A stretch of 45,986 nt of DNA, taken from the IMG/VR virus record IMGVR_UViG_3300022562_001351, positions 1 to 45,986 of that record; one strand, 5' to 3'. Positions 11,242 through 44,940 of this stretch are shown here, piece by piece. The position numbers and the translations under genes were made by a program. The notes under the pieces are model-generated. The model worked only from the letters and a program-made list of their open reading frames with translations, ran no database searches and was not told where the DNA came from. Each line of letters begins with the position of its first letter. Positions within the stretch are counted from its first letter, which is position 1. Source of the stretch: a virus.

Positions 11242-11649
11242 ATGGCGAAACAAGAAATTCGTAGCGCTGGGGAGTTCTACCTAACGGCTTTCCACGTTGA
11301 TTGCAGTACGGTGGGAACGGTCGCGCATCTTCCGTTTCCGGTGAGATGCAAGGTCAATCGCATCCTCGCTGTCTGCGAAGTGGCTCCAGCAGGAGCCAAT
11401 ACCTTGACAGCAAGGCTTCACGGGAACCGGAATCTCAAGAACAACGGGACCTCCGCATCGAAAACGCTGCAAGCTGGCGACATTGCCGGGGACATCACCG
11501 TCTTGGAATTCTCTCCAACGCACTCAGATAATTGCGCCTCTGCGGCAATCGACGGAGATGCGCTCGCCAGGGATTCGTGTTTGGAACTGCGCACGACGGG
11601 TGGCAACGCAGCGACTTATACCTTCTTGGTGGTCTGCCGGCCCGACTAG
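11242..11649 (+). CDS. Small capsid-linked protein, family A copy 2
   Basis: 135 residues, a clear paralogue of the preceding gene: GTVAHLPFPVRCKVNRILAVCE, DIAGDITVLEFSP, DGDALARDSCLEL and TFLVVCRPD line up with it in order. The copies have diverged at most other positions, so the duplication is old. Probable head decoration protein. Confidence 0.65.
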   Translation: MAKQEIRSAGEFYLTAFHVDCSTVGTVAHLPFPVRCKVNRILAVCEVAPAGANTLTARLHGNRNLKNNGTSASKTLQAGDIAGDITVLEFSPTHSDNCASAAIDGDALARDSCLELRTTGGNAATYTFLVVCRPD

Positions 11650-11657
11650 GAGGAGCG

Positions 11658-11996
11658 ATGGGGCAACAGAATTTCCCGGTACTGACGATCTCTCCGGATT
11701 CCGCGACCCAAGTTCTCAACGTGGCTGCAGCATCCAACGTGGCGATCCCTACGCTTGCCAATGGGGCCCTTCCGAAATACGTCTACATCTGCGCATACGG
11801 TGGAGCTGCGGGTGACGTGATCTTCGTGACACCGAAGACGTCGGCTGCCAATGGGGCGTCCGCAACTGGGTTCCCGCTTCCGGTACAGAGCAATTCCGGA
11901 GTCGTGTTTAACGTGGCCGGGTATAGCCACATTGGATACGCGAATACGGGTGGCGGTACTGCAGACTTCAGCATTGTCCCGCTGGAAGACTTCTGA
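11658..11996 (+). CDS. Small capsid-linked protein, family B copy 1
   Basis: 112 residues with NFPVLTISPDS at the start, LPKYVYICAYGGAAGDVIFVTP in the middle and VAGYSHIGYA...PLEDF at the end. The next two genes share all three blocks. AGGAGG precedes the ATG. Likely virion surface protein; see the tandem-array finding. Confidence 0.65.
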   Translation: MGQQNFPVLTISPDSATQVLNVAAASNVAIPTLANGALPKYVYICAYGGAAGDVIFVTPKTSAANGASATGFPLPVQSNSGVVFNVAGYSHIGYANTGGGTADFSIVPLEDF

Positions 11997-12337
11997 TGGC
12001 ACAAAACTTCCCTTACATCACGGTAGGGGTCAATAATTCACTCACCCAGGCAACGATCAACACTTCTGGAAGTGATGCGATCCCTACGATGACGAACGGG
12101 ACGAAGCCGAAATATCTGCATATCAAATGCTTTGCAGGGGATGCCGGGGATACCTACACCGTGAGCCCGAGACATGGAGCCGTAGCCGGTGATGACACAA
12201 AGGGGTTTCCGCTGAGTATGCGTGGAGTTTCAGAAGTAATCCTAAACGTGACTGGATACTCTCACATCGGGTGGGATTTTGTCACGGGATCAGTCGGAAA
12301 TGGACACTTGATGTATACGCCGCTAGAGGACTTCTGA
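11996..12337 (+). CDS. Small capsid-linked protein, family B copy 2
   Basis: 113 residues. It shares NFPYITV, KPKYLHIKCFAGDAGDTYTVSP and VTGYSHIGWD...PLEDF with its neighbours. It overlaps the preceding stop by 1 bp and the following start by 1 bp, so the three copies form one coupled unit. Confidence 0.65.
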   Translation: MAQNFPYITVGVNNSLTQATINTSGSDAIPTMTNGTKPKYLHIKCFAGDAGDTYTVSPRHGAVAGDDTKGFPLSMRGVSEVILNVTGYSHIGWDFVTGSVGNGHLMYTPLEDF

Positions 12338-12684
12338 TGCAGCGATATATCAACGAGCTTCGAAACTTCCCGGTCTTCAGCATCGACCCAGATCGTGGCT
12401 CCCAGCAGCTACTCGCGAACGCTGTAGGAACGCTCAACATTCCGACGACCGCAAGTGGTCTTCGGGCAAAGTACGTCTATATCTGTGTGTACGGTGGAAC
12501 GACTTCGAATCGAATCGAATTCACGCCGGGTGGAACTTCTGGGGCGGCTGGAGAAACCTACGTTCTCACTCCGCTTCGCGACTGTGCAGTGACGCTAAAT
12601 GTCACAGGGTACAGCCAGATTTCTTGGCGCGAAGTGGGTGACGGAACATCCAATTTCACGGTCTACCCGCTGTCGGACGATTGA
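12337..12684 (+). CDS. Small capsid-linked protein, family B copy 3
   Basis: 115 residues, the most diverged of the three: NFPVFSIDPD, RAKYVYICVYGGTTSNRIEFTPG and VTGYSQISWR...PLSDD. It has a nine-residue N-terminal extension before the shared block. ATG overlaps the preceding TGA by 1 bp. Confidence 0.65.
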   Translation: MQRYINELRNFPVFSIDPDRGSQQLLANAVGTLNIPTTASGLRAKYVYICVYGGTTSNRIEFTPGGTSGAAGETYVLTPLRDCAVTLNVTGYSQISWREVGDGTSNFTVYPLSDD

Positions 12685-32528: not shown

Positions 32529-33036
32529 TGCCTTCCTCCCTGATGTCAAAAAACGGGACCCCTCGCAGTGGGGCGACGTATAGTGTCTCTGTTTCCCCAC
32601 GGTTTGGCCGGTGATCCGTGAATTCCCTGGTGGTCCAAAATTCTGCGGTGCTGGACCAAACTATTCCTACGTGCGTCCAGTTGCGGTTGAGCATGAAGAA
32701 GGCCCGTGGCTTGGGATTCGCGAAATCCCAGACGGCCTTCTTGCAGACGGTGATGTCCCGGTACGGGAAGTCGTCCGCGCAGGTGAAATCCAACCCGCGC
32801 TCCTTGACCCCGTAGACGTACTCCAGGTGCTGTTCAAAGCTGCGGAGCACGCCCTTGAAGTCGCCGGAATCCGCGTGGTCTGCGATGTCCTCCTGGCGCT
32901 TGGCGTAGGTCTTCGGCAGATAGATGGCATCATCTCCGCGACCGCGTAGCCATTGCACCACTCGGGCGACGGCGCGTCCATCTCCACGTACCGCGTTCAT
33001 GTAGGCGTCGTAGTTTTCCGCTGTCCTATACACCAC
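32521..33036 (-). CDS. Unknown protein in the recombination operon
   Basis: 171 residues from a GTG at 33036 (GTG at 33033 also possible) with GAGG upstream. The sequence has a helical N-terminal half and a strand-rich second half (GLDFTCADDFPYRDITVCKKAVWDF, HVGIVWSS). A distant PD-(D/E)XK nuclease fold is conceivable from D...D placement but not convincing. It overlaps both neighbours (11 bp and 8 bp). Confidence 0.5.
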   Translation of the reverse strand: MVYRTAENYDAYMNAVRGDGRAVARVVQWLRGRGDDAIYLPKTYAKRQEDIADHADSGDFKGVLRSFEQHLEYVYGVKERGLDFTCADDFPYRDITVCKKAVWDFANPKPRAFFMLNRNWTHVGIVWSSTAEFWTTREFTDHRPNRGETETLYVAPLRGVPFFDIREEGNE

Positions 33037-33856
33037 ACATTCCCTCGCAATCGTTTTCGAACTGGTTGATGAAGCTGAGCTGCGTCTCCTGCAGGATTTC
33101 TGCCGGAGGCAATTCCTCCAATGGGACAAGGAGGTTCGATACGAATTGTTCACGTTTCATTCCACGTCCTGTCCCATTGGATCTCAGCAGCCGATCGAAT
33201 TGGACAGCGCGCTGGAATTCTTCAGGCCGTTCCTTTCTCCACATCGCATACTCTGAAGCGTTCCGATACGGACACATCACGCACGCCGATCGTCCCGGAA
33301 TCGGATGTCTTGCTTCCAACAGCCAGCGCAGGCAGTCCGCTCGGCTCATCCCCATTTCGGCGAGCGGCCAGCGGTGCGTGATCCAGGGTCGCTTCGAAGG
33401 CTTTATCCGGGTCGCCTCATCGGTGCTGATCCCGATCCAGCTTTCGACCCGATAGCGCGGATGAGCACGTTCGTTGGGCTTGAGTCGCAGAATGGATCGG
33501 ATTTCCTCCTGGATCGGACGAATCTTGTACTCATTGGTGCATTGCCGCCGGCCTGGGACGGCTTTGCCGCCCTTGTCCATCCAGAAAGGAATGGAAGCGA
33601 ATCGCTTCTTCTTCTCCGGGTCAAAGGCGTTCTGGATGGCCTCTCCAATGTCTCCTTTCGTGACCACACGGATCGGAATGGAGCCGTGGTCGATCATGCG
33701 CTGCAGGTTTTCGTATACCCATTTTGGTTCCTGCTGAGTATCCGCAAAGATCGCGAAATTGGGGCGAGGAAGAATCTTCGCTTCGTTCGCCATCCAATAC
33801 ATCGCTGTGGATTGCACGCCTGCTCCGAGTGAGATCACGCGCAGATCAAAATGCAT
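33026..33856 (-). CDS. PAPS-reductase-family PP-loop protein
   Basis: 276 residues. SLGAGVQST at 9-17 is the PP-loop of the N-type ATP pyrophosphatases, and CTNEYK 106-111 then SACVMCPYRN (C192, C195) fit the phage branch of the phosphoadenosine phosphosulfate reductase family. Family members bind adenylated sulfur or a related nucleotide, and some modify DNA or tRNA. It lies between the exonuclease and annealing genes, so a link to DNA modification or protection is an inference. Start overlaps the exonuclease by 11 bp with GAGGGAG as ribosome site. Confidence 0.75.
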   Translation of the reverse strand: MHFDLRVISLGAGVQSTAMYWMANEAKILPRPNFAIFADTQQEPKWVYENLQRMIDHGSIPIRVVTKGDIGEAIQNAFDPEKKKRFASIPFWMDKGGKAVPGRRQCTNEYKIRPIQEEIRSILRLKPNERAHPRYRVESWIGISTDEATRIKPSKRPWITHRWPLAEMGMSRADCLRWLLEARHPIPGRSACVMCPYRNASEYAMWRKERPEEFQRAVQFDRLLRSNGTGRGMKREQFVSNLLVPLEELPPAEILQETQLSFINQFENDCEGMCGV

Positions 33857-39834: not shown

Positions 39835-40136
39835 AGTTTCTCTCCACATCCACCACAATAGACATGCGCCGGCATTCGCCGCACGCCACATTGGGTGCAG
39901 AACCGTGCCACTCGGTCGGTTCTGGTTCGGGTTGTGCTCTTAATGGTAGGGAGGGGCGAACCGTAAACACTGGTTCGCTTGCGGCCCTGCTTCTTCCGGT
40001 ACGACTGGTTCTGCTCGTACGACTGCTGCTGCTTCTTGTTGCGATGATCCGGGTACTTCTGGAAATGATTGGCCGAGTCGATGGCCCCCTTGAAGGTCTT
40101 GTTGCACTTATGGCAGACGAACTTTCGTTTTCGCAT
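39831..40136 (-). CDS. Protein with C2H2 finger and zinc ribbon
   Basis: 101 residues. The N-terminus FVCHKCNKTFKGAIDSANHFQKYPDHR fits a C2H2-type finger. A basic, Gln-rich linker leads to a C-terminal ribbon FCTQCGVRRMPAHVYCGGCG (two CxxC pairs). Both ends probably bind zinc and the basic linker DNA. It shares bases with the recombinase stop (TAATG) and is likely translated with it. Confidence 0.7.
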   Translation of the reverse strand: MRKRKFVCHKCNKTFKGAIDSANHFQKYPDHRNKKQQQSYEQNQSYRKKQGRKRTSVYGSPLPTIKSTTRTRTDRVARFCTQCGVRRMPAHVYCGGCGEKL

Positions 40137-40729
40137 TACCAACTCCTGTTCTTGGTCGCATTAACGACTTCTGTGGCTCCTATGTGTTGCAGATACTTCT
40201 GCGTTGTCGTGAGGGAGACATGCCCTAGTGCCAGCATGATCTCCATCAGCTTCACGCCCTCGTCATACAATTCCTTGGCGAAGGTGTGTCTAAAAGCGTG
40301 AGGGTGGACGCGGCGATCTACGCCTGCGCGTCTTGCGGCGAGGTCAATCATCTGCTTGAGGTAGGCTGGCGATACACACGTCCCGTTTCTCGTTATGAAA
40401 AGGGGACCATCACCCGTACCGCGTATCGCCAGCCACTCGTTCACCATAGCACTGGTTCTCTTGTCGATGCCGACCTCGCGGGGCATCGCCCCTCCTTGGT
40501 ATCCCTTGGGCAGACGGATGCGGACGATCATGTTTCCTTCGGAGAGAACCGTGAGGTCGGATAGCTGGAGGGTACACAGCTCTTTGCATCGCATCCCAGT
40601 GCGATAAAGCACCGCGAGGATAGCCCGATTCCTCACGCCGACTCTGGTTCCGTCGATGGCCGCATCCAGCATCTTGAGGCATTGCGCTCTCGTCAGTGGA
40701 TGCGGCGGATAGCGATGACCCTTCCTCAC
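40136..40729 (-). CDS. Minimal tyrosine recombinase
   Basis: 197 residues, essentially only the catalytic domain. R47 (TGMRCKEL), K75 (LPKGYQGG), H144 and R147 (HPHAFRHTF), H170 (LGHVSLTTTQKY) and Y179 give a complete active site. There is no arm-binding domain and no core-binding domain before the catalytic part, so it is about 100-150 residues shorter than usual integrases. It may integrate the phage or resolve genome multimers. attP was not found. Confidence 0.82.
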   Translation of the reverse strand: MRKGHRYPPHPLTRAQCLKMLDAAIDGTRVGVRNRAILAVLYRTGMRCKELCTLQLSDLTVLSEGNMIVRIRLPKGYQGGAMPREVGIDKRTSAMVNEWLAIRGTGDGPLFITRNGTCVSPAYLKQMIDLAARRAGVDRRVHPHAFRHTFAKELYDEGVKLMEIMLALGHVSLTTTQKYLQHIGATEVVNATKNRSW

Positions 40730-40913: not shown

Positions 40914-41396
40914 CTAATGGATCGTTTCCTTGCGGAACGATCCGGAGGCGGGATGTTCCGGACCTTCCGGCCCATCCCACGGGAAATCGACTGCTCGGTT
41001 GATCTGGATGCACTCCACCTTCCATGCAGAGAGATACTTCCTGCCGCAATCACGGCAGACGCTAGGTGCGAATCCGATATTCATCGCCACCTGTACCATA
41101 TCCTCTTCGGATTCTGGTTCATCTCCGATGGCACCGCGAACGATGACAGCTTCATGCTCTTTCATGGCTTTTTCGGCCATCTCATCTGCTTCCGCTCTGC
41201 TTCGTGTCCCCGGCTCCGCAGCGAGTGTTATCATGGTTCCGCACTCACATGGAATCACCACAGCAATCTCGGTGAATCCAGCCTGTGCCTCCTGCGGATG
41301 CATGATGTCCAGTGCCTTCTTCTTGTCCTCGTAGGACTTCATCGGTGTGTACCTGAGTCCGATGTCATGCAGCAGACTTGCGAGTAGTCGTTTCAT
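40914..41396 (-). CDS. Unknown Cys-containing protein
   Basis: 160 residues. CECG near the middle and CRDCGRKYLSAW later may form a zinc site. The ATG at 41396 has GGAGG 7 bp upstream; an ATG at 41411 would include that site in the coding part. It follows the VWA gene in the same operon and could be an accessory of that module. Confidence 0.55.
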   Translation of the reverse strand: MKRLLASLLHDIGLRYTPMKSYEDKKKALDIMHPQEAQAGFTEIAVVIPCECGTMITLAAEPGTRSRAEADEMAEKAMKEHEAVIVRGAIGDEPESEEDMVQVAMNIGFAPSVCRDCGRKYLSAWKVECIQINRAVDFPWDGPEGPEHPASGSFRKETIH

Positions 41397-41427
41397 TCCC
41401 GTTTCCTCCATGCCCTATGCGGGCTCA

Positions 41428-42867
41428 TCATTCATCATCCGTATCGCCTTCATCATACGCATCAGGATCGCGCTTGAGTGCTTTGCATACATCCCCTACG
41501 TCGATGCATCGCGTGATGTTGTTCTCCTTCTTCACGGTATCGCAGGCTTTGTTGATGAGTCGGTTAGAGTTGTCATTGACGCCTGTGACACCACCATCGG
41601 ACAGCCACACTCTCGGTTCCGGCTGACACGACAGCCACTCCAATGCCGGAAGGTCGATGACGTTCGATCCACCTCTCGTATTGAAGTTGCCTGCCTCCAC
41701 CTTCTTGCCATTGCGCACGACGATCTTGAGATCGCCCTCCCTTCCATAGCCAGAGTAGACAGCCACGGTCGTTGCAAACGGAGCACCCTCTACGATGCGT
41801 TGGATGTCTCTCTCCGAGATATGCATACTGCCGCTACTGTCGATGAGTACGGTTCCGCCTCCCTTGCGCTTCTTTGCCCTGCGTTTGAACACACGCTGGT
41901 CCGCAATGAATCGTTCGATGAAACGGAATTCCGTACCCTCCTCTGCACTCCTCGCTTTGGTGGTACGCTCCAGATCCGGAGATACCACAGGCACCGTCAA
42001 TGGCGGCGTGAGGATGTGCATCTCTCCGGGGGGAGTGTGCCCCCAATTCGTGCCATAGTACGGAGAGAGCTTGGGATCGTATCGGCTTGTTTGGCCCCAC
42101 GATCCATAGTCACCACCGTCGTAGGTCGATGGTTGGTGCTGCATCCCCTTCTTCATCTGGATGGATCGTCCGAATCCCATCTGGAGTCCAGCTCTGGCGA
42201 CCTTCGCCTCTCCATCAGGGTCATCTTCAGCTCTGCTGAATTTCCTCAGCTCCTTCTCCAGCCAGCGTGCGATGCGTTGCAGGGAGCTGAATTTCGGAAC
42301 GACACGCTGCGTCCCTCTGGCCCTCTCCATGCGTTTGTGCAGATTCTTCATCAGAGTCTGTAGCCAGATGGCTCTCACATCGCGTTGCTCTGCACATCCA
42401 TCCAAAACCATCCGATGGTATCTTGCGACGTTGGTGCCCTCGTAGCTGACGAGTCGCAATGCAGCAGCCACCACATTGCCCTCCCCCAGCTCCACCGAGA
42501 GATCCAGATAGGACTCCTTGCGCTCCGGTTCTGGTATGACGCATGGAATTCCCAGCAGAGCGAGTCCCTGATTCACCCTCATCTCTTCCAGGCTTTCGAT
42601 GCAGCCTCGCATCAGCCAGGATCGACAGCGGGGCTTATCCTTGGGACTCCATTTGGCGTGTCCCATCTCATGCCGTCGGATGTATTCTCCGTCGGGTGTG
42701 AGTGGGACCGCCATGATCCGCTTCCGCTTGTCGGTCTGTCCATCGACTTTGCCCAGCTCCTTGGACGATTTCTTGACATACTCAATGTCCACGACGCTGT
42801 AGCCACGGTAGGGATCTGGATCGACCAGCTCCGGATAGGGTTTGTAGTGGATCGGTTTACTCGCCAT
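41428..42867 (-). CDS. Metallopeptidase-VWA fusion, MoxR partner
   Basis: 479 residues. HEMGH at 66-70 is a HExxH zinc-binding motif, and IESLEEMRVNQGL that follows fits the helix with the third ligand. This is the layout of DUF2201-like putative metallopeptidases. From about 340 a von Willebrand A domain begins, with the metal-ion site DSSGS at 343-347 and later SDGG. Overlaps the AAA+ gene by 11 bp. In known pairs the AAA+ ring remodels a target selected by the VWA protein; here a cleavage step may be added. Target unknown. Confidence 0.75.
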   Translation of the reverse strand: MASKPIHYKPYPELVDPDPYRGYSVVDIEYVKKSSKELGKVDGQTDKRKRIMAVPLTPDGEYIRRHEMGHAKWSPKDKPRCRSWLMRGCIESLEEMRVNQGLALLGIPCVIPEPERKESYLDLSVELGEGNVVAAALRLVSYEGTNVARYHRMVLDGCAEQRDVRAIWLQTLMKNLHKRMERARGTQRVVPKFSSLQRIARWLEKELRKFSRAEDDPDGEAKVARAGLQMGFGRSIQMKKGMQHQPSTYDGGDYGSWGQTSRYDPKLSPYYGTNWGHTPPGEMHILTPPLTVPVVSPDLERTTKARSAEEGTEFRFIERFIADQRVFKRRAKKRKGGGTVLIDSSGSMHISERDIQRIVEGAPFATTVAVYSGYGREGDLKIVVRNGKKVEAGNFNTRGGSNVIDLPALEWLSCQPEPRVWLSDGGVTGVNDNSNRLINKACDTVKKENNITRCIDVGDVCKALKRDPDAYDEGDTDDE

Positions 42868-43861
42868 CGGTGGACTCCACAGCATCCAGCGCTGCCTTCT
42901 TCTGCTCTTCCTTGGCCCGCATTTCAAAAGCGAGCACCAGCGCTTCATGGATGTTCCTGCCACGGGACACACCGAATGCGATCTTGCACGCATCTTGCAG
43001 GTCCAGATCTTTGCGGAGGATGTCCAGTGCGGTCCATCCCCGTGCAGAGATCAGCCTGTCTCCCTCGCCGATGGTCTGCTCTGCGACCCTCTTGAGGTCG
43101 TCGTCGATGCGATCCAGCGCTTTGGGATGCATCCGTGTCACCTTGACGTATCCCATGAACCGATCTTGCAGTGGTTCCGGGAGCAATTCCGGAGCCCGGT
43201 TATCGGTTGCGATGACATGGAATCCCTCTGCCGGCCGTACCGTGTCGCCATTGGGCAGCGTGATGCAGGCAGTCTCAAAGGATTCCAGGATCGGGAAGAG
43301 CAATGCGAGCACATCCGAGGAGGCGTTGGTGATCTCATTGATGACCAGACGCTTCCCCTCTCGCATGGCACGGATGAACGGGCCATCGTGCCAGAGTGCA
43401 TCTCCACCCTTGAAGATGAAGTGTCCACGCAATTCCGCAGCAGAGGTTTCATCCGTCAATGTGACGGCATAGAACCCCTTGCCCGTGCGGCCGTAGTGAT
43501 AAGCCGCATACGTCTTGCCGATGCCGGGAGGTCCCCAGAGATACAGCGTGCGAACCGACGGAATCCCCAGGAGTCGTTCGATCATCTCCCAGGAGTCGAT
43601 GCTGAATTGCCAATCCCTGCGCCCCCCTTCGATGCCGCTCTTCTCCCAGAAATACTCTGCCAGCTTCAGCGCTCCATCTGCATTTGCTCGTTCAAAGTGT
43701 TCTCGGTCCATGATGATTTCGGAGGTGAATCCTCCATCATTGGAGAATCGGACCGTGACGGACACCTTCGTCTTTGCGTCATCCGCCCAATTCATGTCTG
43801 TGTCATGGACCTTGAGTCCGTATTCCTTCGCCATCTTTCGGATATGGTCGTCGAATCCCAT
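42857..43861 (-). CDS. MoxR-type AAA+ ATPase
   Basis: 334 residues. GPPGIGKT at 110-117 is Walker A, RLVINEI at 171-177 Walker B, IATDN about 217-221 sensor 1, and LQDRF about 231-235 the arginine-finger region. An N-terminal domain of about 85 residues precedes the ATPase. It matches the MoxR/CobS group, chaperone-like AAA+ that partner VWA proteins. GGAGG upstream of the ATG. The VWA gene overlaps its end, so the two are co-translated. Confidence 0.82.
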   Translation of the reverse strand: MGFDDHIRKMAKEYGLKVHDTDMNWADDAKTKVSVTVRFSNDGGFTSEIIMDREHFERANADGALKLAEYFWEKSGIEGGRRDWQFSIDSWEMIERLLGIPSVRTLYLWGPPGIGKTYAAYHYGRTGKGFYAVTLTDETSAAELRGHFIFKGGDALWHDGPFIRAMREGKRLVINEITNASSDVLALLFPILESFETACITLPNGDTVRPAEGFHVIATDNRAPELLPEPLQDRFMGYVKVTRMHPKALDRIDDDLKRVAEQTIGEGDRLISARGWTALDILRKDLDLQDACKIAFGVSRGRNIHEALVLAFEMRAKEEQKKAALDAVESTDGE

Positions 43862-43906
43862 TTCCCGTTTCCTCCGTGGCCTAGCTTGGCCTGTTGTTGG
43901 TTGGTA

Positions 43907-44104
43907 TCACCGGTTCACAGGATGATTTCGTTCTCGTTCTACTCTCATCCTGTACCGATTCATGATGTCCTTGTACTCCCTATCCAATCTGCGTCGATAG
44001 CGTACTTCGCTGACGAATACACAGATTGGGATCAGCAATGCTCCGATGAGGATCAGGATGCCGATGATCTGATCCTTCGTGAGCAAGACATACTCAGGCA
44101 GCAT
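43907..44104 (-). CDS. Small membrane protein with basic tail
   Basis: 65 residues: a membrane helix (IIGILILIGALLIPICVFVSEV) followed by an Arg-rich helix (YRRRLDREYKDIMNRYRMRVERER). ATG overlaps the upstream stop (TGATG). Possible membrane tether for a module of this operon; not a known family. Confidence 0.55.
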   Translation of the reverse strand: MLPEYVLLTKDQIIGILILIGALLIPICVFVSEVRYRRRLDREYKDIMNRYRMRVERERNHPVNR

Positions 44105-44532
44105 CACACCTCCACCATCCCATCGTTGGGATCGTCGATGTCGTCCGTGTCCATGTCGATTTTCGGGTGGATGCGGAGCATCGCCATGGTGAGCAATGCG
44201 CATCGGATGAGATACCCGTGAGGGCAGTCATCTTCCTCTGTGCATACCGGGCAGATCTGCATGACGGCGTTGATGCCATCGCCGTCATCCTCCAGCTTGA
44301 GCGGGTATCGTTCGTCGATGCTCTCCTTGATGGCGTAGATCGTCCGGGAGAGCATGATGCGGACGGGGTTGGGCATCTGATTGGACTGCTTGATGAGCAG
44401 ATGGATGATGCCGGTGACGCTGGCGACCTGTTCGATCATGCGTGCGGTATCGGGATCGCGGGTCATGTCTCGCTTCACCTTGTCATGCAATTCTCGTAGG
44501 CCCTGGTCGAATGTCTTGGACTGCTCACTCAT
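44104..44532 (-). CDS. Unknown 142-residue protein with possible zinc site
   Basis: Helical N-terminal part, then CPVCTEEDDCPHGYLIRCALL, a likely Cys/His zinc knot, and an acidic C-terminus. Starts at 44532, overlapping the preceding gene by 8 bp. No family is recognised. Confidence 0.55.
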   Translation of the reverse strand: MSEQSKTFDQGLRELHDKVKRDMTRDPDTARMIEQVASVTGIIHLLIKQSNQMPNPVRIMLSRTIYAIKESIDERYPLKLEDDGDGINAVMQICPVCTEEDDCPHGYLIRCALLTMAMLRIHPKIDMDTDDIDDPNDGMVEV

Positions 44533-44707
44533 CGTCGTACCCCTTGGGGATGCTGGTGTGGAAGATGGGCATCTCTGCGGGCGAGTATGCTTCGATCCAC
44601 TCCATGAGATCGTCTGCTGTGATGTGCTGGTCGATGAAGTCAATGGCATCGCCGTCGGTCATGCATTGGGCCGTGGCGATGATGGCCTGTGTGTGTGTGA
44701 TGGACAT
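44525..44707 (-). CDS. Small acidic protein
   Basis: 60 residues, helical, acidic (TDGDAIDFIDQHITADDLMEWIEAY). Small acidic early proteins often act on host factors, but nothing specific is visible. Overlaps the next gene by 8 bp. Confidence 0.55.
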   Translation of the reverse strand: MSITHTQAIIATAQCMTDGDAIDFIDQHITADDLMEWIEAYSPAEMPIFHTSIPKGYDDE

Positions 44708-44709
44708 TT

Positions 44710-44940
44710 CTACCCCCAGATCTTCTGAAACACGCCGGAGCGCTGGAGGGAGTACATCTGTCCATGGCCGGTGCCGAGTCCGTTGCCGTGTCGGTCATGG
44801 CAGGTGACGCACATGATGGCCCATGTGGGTCTTGAGCGGAGGATGCCATCGACGAACAGGGTCGCGATGGGCTGACGGCAGATCTGGCATTTCTCCGGGT
44901 TTTTGCTGTTCCAGGTGATGATTCGCTTGGGTTTGGTCAT
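44710..44940 (-). CDS. Small zinc-finger protein, first gene of the leftward operon
   Basis: 76 residues. CQIC near residue 18 and CVTCHDRHGNG later give a two-pair Cys/His zinc site, with a resemblance to HNH-type zinc knots, but the catalytic His-Asn-His set is not complete. AGGAGAT precedes the start by 8-9 bp. It opens the operon that runs to 37,369. Confidence 0.55.
   Translation of the reverse strand: MTKPKRIITWNSKNPEKCQICRQPIATLFVDGILRSRPTWAIMCVTCHDRHGNGLGTGHGQMYSLQRSGVFQKIWG

Follow-up and report, generated by a model that had tools for sequence, protein, structure and literature searches.

What do a MoxR-type AAA+ ATPase and a partner protein that joins a candidate zinc site to a VWA domain do for the virus that encodes them? 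The question is raised by a stretch of DNA of 45,986 bases, the full length of the record of an uncultivated virus in IMG/VR (IMGVR_UViG_3300022562_001351), which was analysed as a whole and is referred to below as the window. An initial annotation had taken these two genes together with their small neighbours to be the best candidate for an undescribed system. We find that the pair is real, coupled and conserved, and that it is a new, deeply diverged subfamily of a phage module already known; the same architecture was described in 2021 from jumbo phages (Iyer et al., 2021, PMC7824862) and a cobST pair has been recorded in many tailed viruses (Liu et al., 2021, PMC8651126). At roughly even odds (about 0.5), the two proteins would form a machine that remodels proteins by means of ATP and has a head resembling a metallopeptidase, and its client is likely to be a replication or recombination protein met early in infection.

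The ATPase and its partner protein

The ATPase matches Pfam AAA_5 at 6.3e-20 and carries a Walker A motif (GPPGIGKT at residues 110-117, the lysine being K116), a Walker B motif LVINE(I) with NEI at 175, the sensor TDN at 219-221 and DRF at 233-235. Near the start of the partner protein HEMGH lies at 66-70 and EEMR at 94-97, which gives H66, E67, H70 and E94 as candidate zinc-site residues, and the metal ion-dependent adhesion site (MIDAS) motif DSSGS follows at 343-347. All the motifs claimed initially for the two proteins were therefore found, as was the overlap of 11 base pairs (bp) between the genes, which points to their translational coupling. When the partner protein was shuffled, HExxH turned up in 1.1% of the sequences, as did DxSGS, and HExxH with a downstream E[DE]xR in 0.02%; since the motifs are rare in shuffles and invariant in divergent homologues, they are not due to chance. 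The C-terminal third of the protein matches phrog_33218 at 4.7e-20. However, neither of the families first suggested for it was supported, as no Pfam family matched at E<=0.1, the models of CobT (PF06213/PF11775) and DUF2201 (PF13203) included. When the VWA alignment was used for a profile search of the PDB, the matches were all spurious.

Close relatives of the pair are scarce. Among 36 related records, mostly fragments, both proteins are encoded in G007 (48 kb) alone, the ATPase and the VWA protein being 46% and 36% identical to those of the window; the G007 genes overlap by the same 11 bp, and after them come the recombinase and recombination genes known from the window. Scans of IMG/VR with either protein as a single sequence gave no match, and profile scans with both recovered G007 alone. 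Three further pairs, on contigs of metagenome-assembled genomes, were recovered when 84,980 species genomes were scanned; two of the three adjoin an exonuclease, and L094 an annealing protein as well. The ATPase and VWA genes are adjacent in the window, L090, L094, L095 and L096, with overlaps of 11 bp in L090, 14 bp in L094 and 8 bp in L096. Across five VWA proteins of 27-36% identity the invariant columns include H66, E67, G69, H70, W73, S74, P75, E94, R97 and N99, and the MIDAS motif D[SIA]SGSM is present in all four full-length members. Two of the three outcomes by which the initial annotation would have been refuted were thus not seen, as the linkage of the pair is conserved and the zinc ligands (H66, E67, H70 and E94) are retained in 5/5 proteins.

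The PDB profile matches of the ATPase were midasin, NorQ (8e-21), CbbQ (2e-13) and, weakest of the last three, CobS (1.5e-8), all of them ATPases with MIDAS or VWA partners. It can be seen in the ATPase tree, the deep branches of which are weakly supported and the root of which is arbitrary, that the window subfamily forms its own clade outside CobS (support 98/97), and that the cellular CobS clade (100/99) is nested among phage CobS-like ATPases. Two candidates were discarded. MT837618, the longest-covering phage match of the ATPase, is RuvB-like and adjoins RuvA- and RuvC-like open reading frames, and the neighbour of the ATPase of Zaria is a DUF7192 protein, not a VWA protein. We also noted that in Microbacterium phage Zooman (L002 4764-9185) a MoxR-like ATPase gene stands directly before rIIA/rIIB-like genes, with no annotated VWA neighbour.

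Distant phage relatives and cellular CobT

As a tblastn search of GenBank phages with the VWA protein gave no match, its link to the cyanophage protein was reached via the neighbours of the ATPase. In pelagiphage HTVC008M, found through the best phage matches of the ATPase, 'cobS' is preceded by the gene of a 'peptidase' (phrog_459) that carries HEVGH...EDIRI and a VWA domain. The same pair architecture is present in cyanophages ('peptidase' and 'cobS'), in SSU5 and in rhizobial, actinobacterial and ICP2-type phages. The domain of the window protein that runs from HExxH to the glutamate matches the profile of the cyanophage 'peptidase' (phrog_459-type) at E 1.8e-5 and, more weakly, an actinophage profile at 5e-4; the cyanophage profile matches that of phage CobT-like proteins at 5e-18 over 170 residues of the same zinc-site domain, and the phage CobT-like profile matches cellular CobT from end to end at 1e-51.

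HExxH and E(D)xR are kept in 80/80 cyanophage-like proteins, although this set was gathered with the pattern GHEVGHA, which favours proteins that keep HExxH; a recount limited to the 70 proteins in which a second pattern also occurs, at another place in the sequence, found HExxH in 70/70 and lessens this bias without removing it. In an alignment of 48 cyanophage-like sequences with a mean column identity of 34%, the only invariant positions in columns 58-91 are H58, E59, H62, A63, T66, N85, E88, D89 and R91, and the x positions of HExxH vary (HEVGH, HECSH, HETGH, HEIAH). Partner proteins of 11 other phages, which were fetched by tblastn and not picked by motif, keep HExxH in nine cases; the ICP2 partner has VVDHNIEY in place of the third-ligand motif. 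By contrast, HExxH was present in 0/30 cellular CobT proteins (L102-L131), where SIALK stands at the aligned position in an N-terminal domain homologous to that of the phage protein. To judge from these alignments, cellular CobT resembles a pseudo-enzyme form of the phage-type protein.

The model built for a relative of the cyanophage type (mean predicted local distance difference test score, pLDDT, 76.7) places HExxH in a helix at 49-65 and E88 in a helix at 81-99, with three beta-strands before them, which is the order of strands and helices seen in zincins. The PDB folds that match this model best are VWA domains of NorD in complex with NorQ, and the MIDAS domain of midasin; a Foldseek search of viral models also matched proteins of a haloarchaeal virus, a Thermus phage and ATV.

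Proposed function and its alternatives

The mechanism that we favour has the AAA+ protein form a MoxR-type hexamer, on the ring of which the VWA domain of the partner would dock as NorD does on NorQ. The metal of the MIDAS would hold a client, and ATP hydrolysis would pull or twist the partner so that the client is presented or the partner's own N-terminal domain is released; the H66-E67-H70...E94 site would bind zinc and clip a peptide bond. The client would most likely belong to the replication or recombination apparatus of the phage or of the host, and be acted on early in infection. Such a client is suggested by the neighbours of the pairs, which in other phages are gp46 and gp45, DNA ligase and DNA polymerase III alpha, or primase and helicase, and in the window include an exonuclease, an annealing protein and a recombinase. 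Structural genes of the window are on the plus strand, and a block between about 31.6 and 45 kb, mostly on the minus strand, holds the gene pair with genes for a RecT-like annealing protein, the exonuclease, a PAPS-reductase-like protein and a short tyrosine recombinase; we infer early expression of this block.

Several points weigh against this proposal. The partners in hairong (L225 2483-4558; SEIAK) and BUCTxx99 (L226 2480-4462; REVST) are without HExxH in phages that keep the CobS/CobT-like pair, and the catalytic residues are therefore dispensable in some lineages. No zincin was among the top matches of the fold search for the N-terminal domain, where VWA matches dominate; what AlphaFold predicted for the window protein itself was too poor for use (pLDDT 52.7); and the replication-gene neighbourhood is an association only.

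A potential explanation that would also make use of a peptidase is that the pair acts as a virion-assembly chaperone and processes structural proteins, a role proposed for the MoxR and metallopeptidase-vWA genes paired in group 2.2 jumbo phages (PMC7824862); ATV offers an analogy, its p618, a virion protein, interacting with p892. We consider this unlikely, as the window pair lies with recombination genes on the strand opposite the structural genes, and the pairs of the other phages examined are mostly beside replication genes. We regard as somewhat less probable still the idea that the pair is an anti-defence or superinfection-exclusion module that cuts or remodels an immune protein of the host. 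The patchy presence of the pair, in one of the 36 related records, would fit this, as would the vWA-MoxR modules found in bacterial conflict systems (PMC7159879); however, the defence-related role raised in the initial annotation drew no meaningful PADLOC match in the window (two marginal ones, at 0.007-0.009), and a general function agrees better with genes that are core in cyanophages and recur beside replication genes. The context favours replication or recombination over exclusion.

A NorQD-type metal-insertion chaperone, in which the HExxH site would hold a metal without cutting, seems to us very unlikely. NorQ and NorD, which insert iron (PMC13036017), are the closest structural relatives of the ATPase and the VWA protein, and the loss of HExxH in two phages would agree with such a role; against this, the general-base glutamate E67, needless for pure metal holding, is invariant alongside the histidines, and no candidate metalloenzyme client is linked to the pair. 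Least probable of all is the published proposal of a viral cobaltochelatase that borrows host CobN and boosts cobalamin synthesis (PMC8651126), to which the end-to-end match of phage and cellular CobT profiles and the nesting of cellular CobS among phage ATPases do lend support, but which we disfavour because most phage proteins keep ligands that cellular CobT lacks (all of them in the window subfamily) and the window ATPase lies outside the CobS clade and matches NorQ and CbbQ better than CobS, while the window protein has no CobT Pfam match and neither CobN nor any other corrin or B12 gene was recognised among those of the window proteins that were scanned.

The remodelling and peptidase reading that we prefer leads to a wider point, which is a more interesting outcome than the pair itself. 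We tentatively suggest, while doubting it somewhat more than the proposal for the window, that the widespread phage 'cobST', including the core cobS of cyanophages, is mostly an ATP-driven zinc-protease machine acting on replication or recombination proteins and not on B12, cellular CobT being a relative that lost the zinc site. Viral cobS is often tallied as a host-derived metabolic gene in ocean-virus surveys, and if the partner is a working metalloprotease this annotation is wrong for most phages. There would then be a core function common to T4-like cyanophages, pelagiphages, SSU5-type phage-plasmids and the podovirus group of the window, testable by single-residue mutants (E67, K116, D343), and the divergent window subfamily reveals which residues are retained over deep divergence.

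Genomic surroundings and known systems

The small proteins described initially around the pair (a membrane protein with a basic tail, an acidic protein, here of 60 residues, and small CxxC proteins) are all present, but the overlaps of 4-11 bp said to run throughout are not: the junctions across the gene run are a gap of 2, overlaps of 8 and 1, a gap of 45, the overlap of 11, and gaps of 31 and 184 bp. The idea that the flanking genes form one six-gene system with the pair had to be dropped, as none of them has a detectable homologue in G007, and membership of the 65-residue membrane protein is doubtful for the same reason. Apart from the pair, G007 shares with the window no more than the recombinase, helicase and recombination genes that lie further along.

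Table. Features of the window in and around the gene pair (aa, amino acids)
Feature	Position	Strand	Basis or remark
PAPS-reductase-like protein	33029-33856	minus	phrog_424, 9e-42; between exonuclease and RecT genes
Tyrosine recombinase, 197 aa, catalytic domain only (N-terminal arm-binding domain absent)	40136-40729	minus	Pfam 7.9e-28; 56% identical in G007
160-aa protein, zinc-ribbon-like cysteines CxC...CxxC	40914-41396	minus	neighbour, not conserved
HExxH-VWA protein, 479 aa from the coupled ATG	41428-42867	minus	zinc-site and MIDAS motifs
11-bp overlap ATGGCGAGTAA, AAA+ stop with VWA start	42857-42867	minus	read from sequence
MoxR-type (AAA_5) AAA+ ATPase, 334 aa	42857-43861	minus	motifs and Pfam AAA_5
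65-aa single-pass membrane protein, basic tail	43907-44104	minus	same operon; no homologue in G007
142-aa acidic protein, CxxC-CPH cysteine cluster	44104-44532	minus	neighbour, not conserved
60-aa acidic protein	44525-44707	minus	neighbour, not conserved
76-aa basic protein, two CxxC pairs	44710-44940	minus	phrog_29767, 1.1e-8; neighbour

A podovirus is indicated by the portal (phrog_1216), the head protein (phrog_1328), the scaffold and the terminase of the window. The portal shares 36% identity with its counterpart in Pseudomonas phage tf and as much as about 80% with portals on other metagenomic contigs, bar one identical copy. This copy, 100% identical, is on a 5.4-kb contig from another metagenome (L008), from which we conclude that the same or a very near virus is present in a second sample. 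In the structural region three successive open reading frames (11532-12684, plus strand) each match one single protein of the relative L091 at about 40% identity, and are apparently tandem paralogues.

Several known systems resemble the pair. Bacterial MoxR and DUF2201 (PF13203/PF09967) pairs have the MoxR neighbour, a VWA-like C-terminus and, in some members, HExxH, but the glutamate of that motif is not invariant in DUF2201; kinship beyond the VWA domain was not supported, as there was no Pfam match and hhalign covered 20 VWA columns only. NorQ-NorD, CbbQ-CbbO and RavA-ViaA likewise join a MoxR AAA+ protein to a VWA partner, NorQ and NorD being the best structural matches; to our knowledge no HExxH domain occurs in partners of the NorD, CbbO and ViaA type. 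Pairs of MoxR and VWA proteins use ATP hydrolysis to remodel clients. The NorQ pore holds a finger of NorD, and twisting of it by NorQ has been proposed (PMC13036017). Cellular CobS-CobT shares with the window a MoxR-like ATPase and a VWA partner with a homologous N-terminal domain, but acts with CobN and is without HExxH in 30/30 cases. The 'CobT/CobS' proteins of SSU5, RHEph10, ICP2 and Gordonia phages (phrog_1576 and others) have the same two-protein architecture, yet are nearer to cellular CobST, whereas the window ATPase is in a separate clade.

In the group 2.2 jumbo phages a MoxR AAA+ gene adjoins that for a vWA protein bearing a metallopeptidase domain at its N-terminus (PMC7824862), as in the window, which is by contrast a 46-kb podovirus with the ATPase first; the two are likened by description, not by sequence. 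Liu et al. (PMC8651126) regarded the name 'peptidase' as a misannotation. The proteins so named in cyanophages and pelagiphages (phrog_459, with 'cobS', phrog_249) differ from the window protein in that the partner gene comes first and encodes about 700-800 residues with a long linker, and detectable alignment between them is limited to the zinc-site domain of about 80 residues; they nevertheless share with it the HExxH...EDxR N-terminus, the C-terminal VWA domain, the adjacent MoxR ATPase and the replication genes around.

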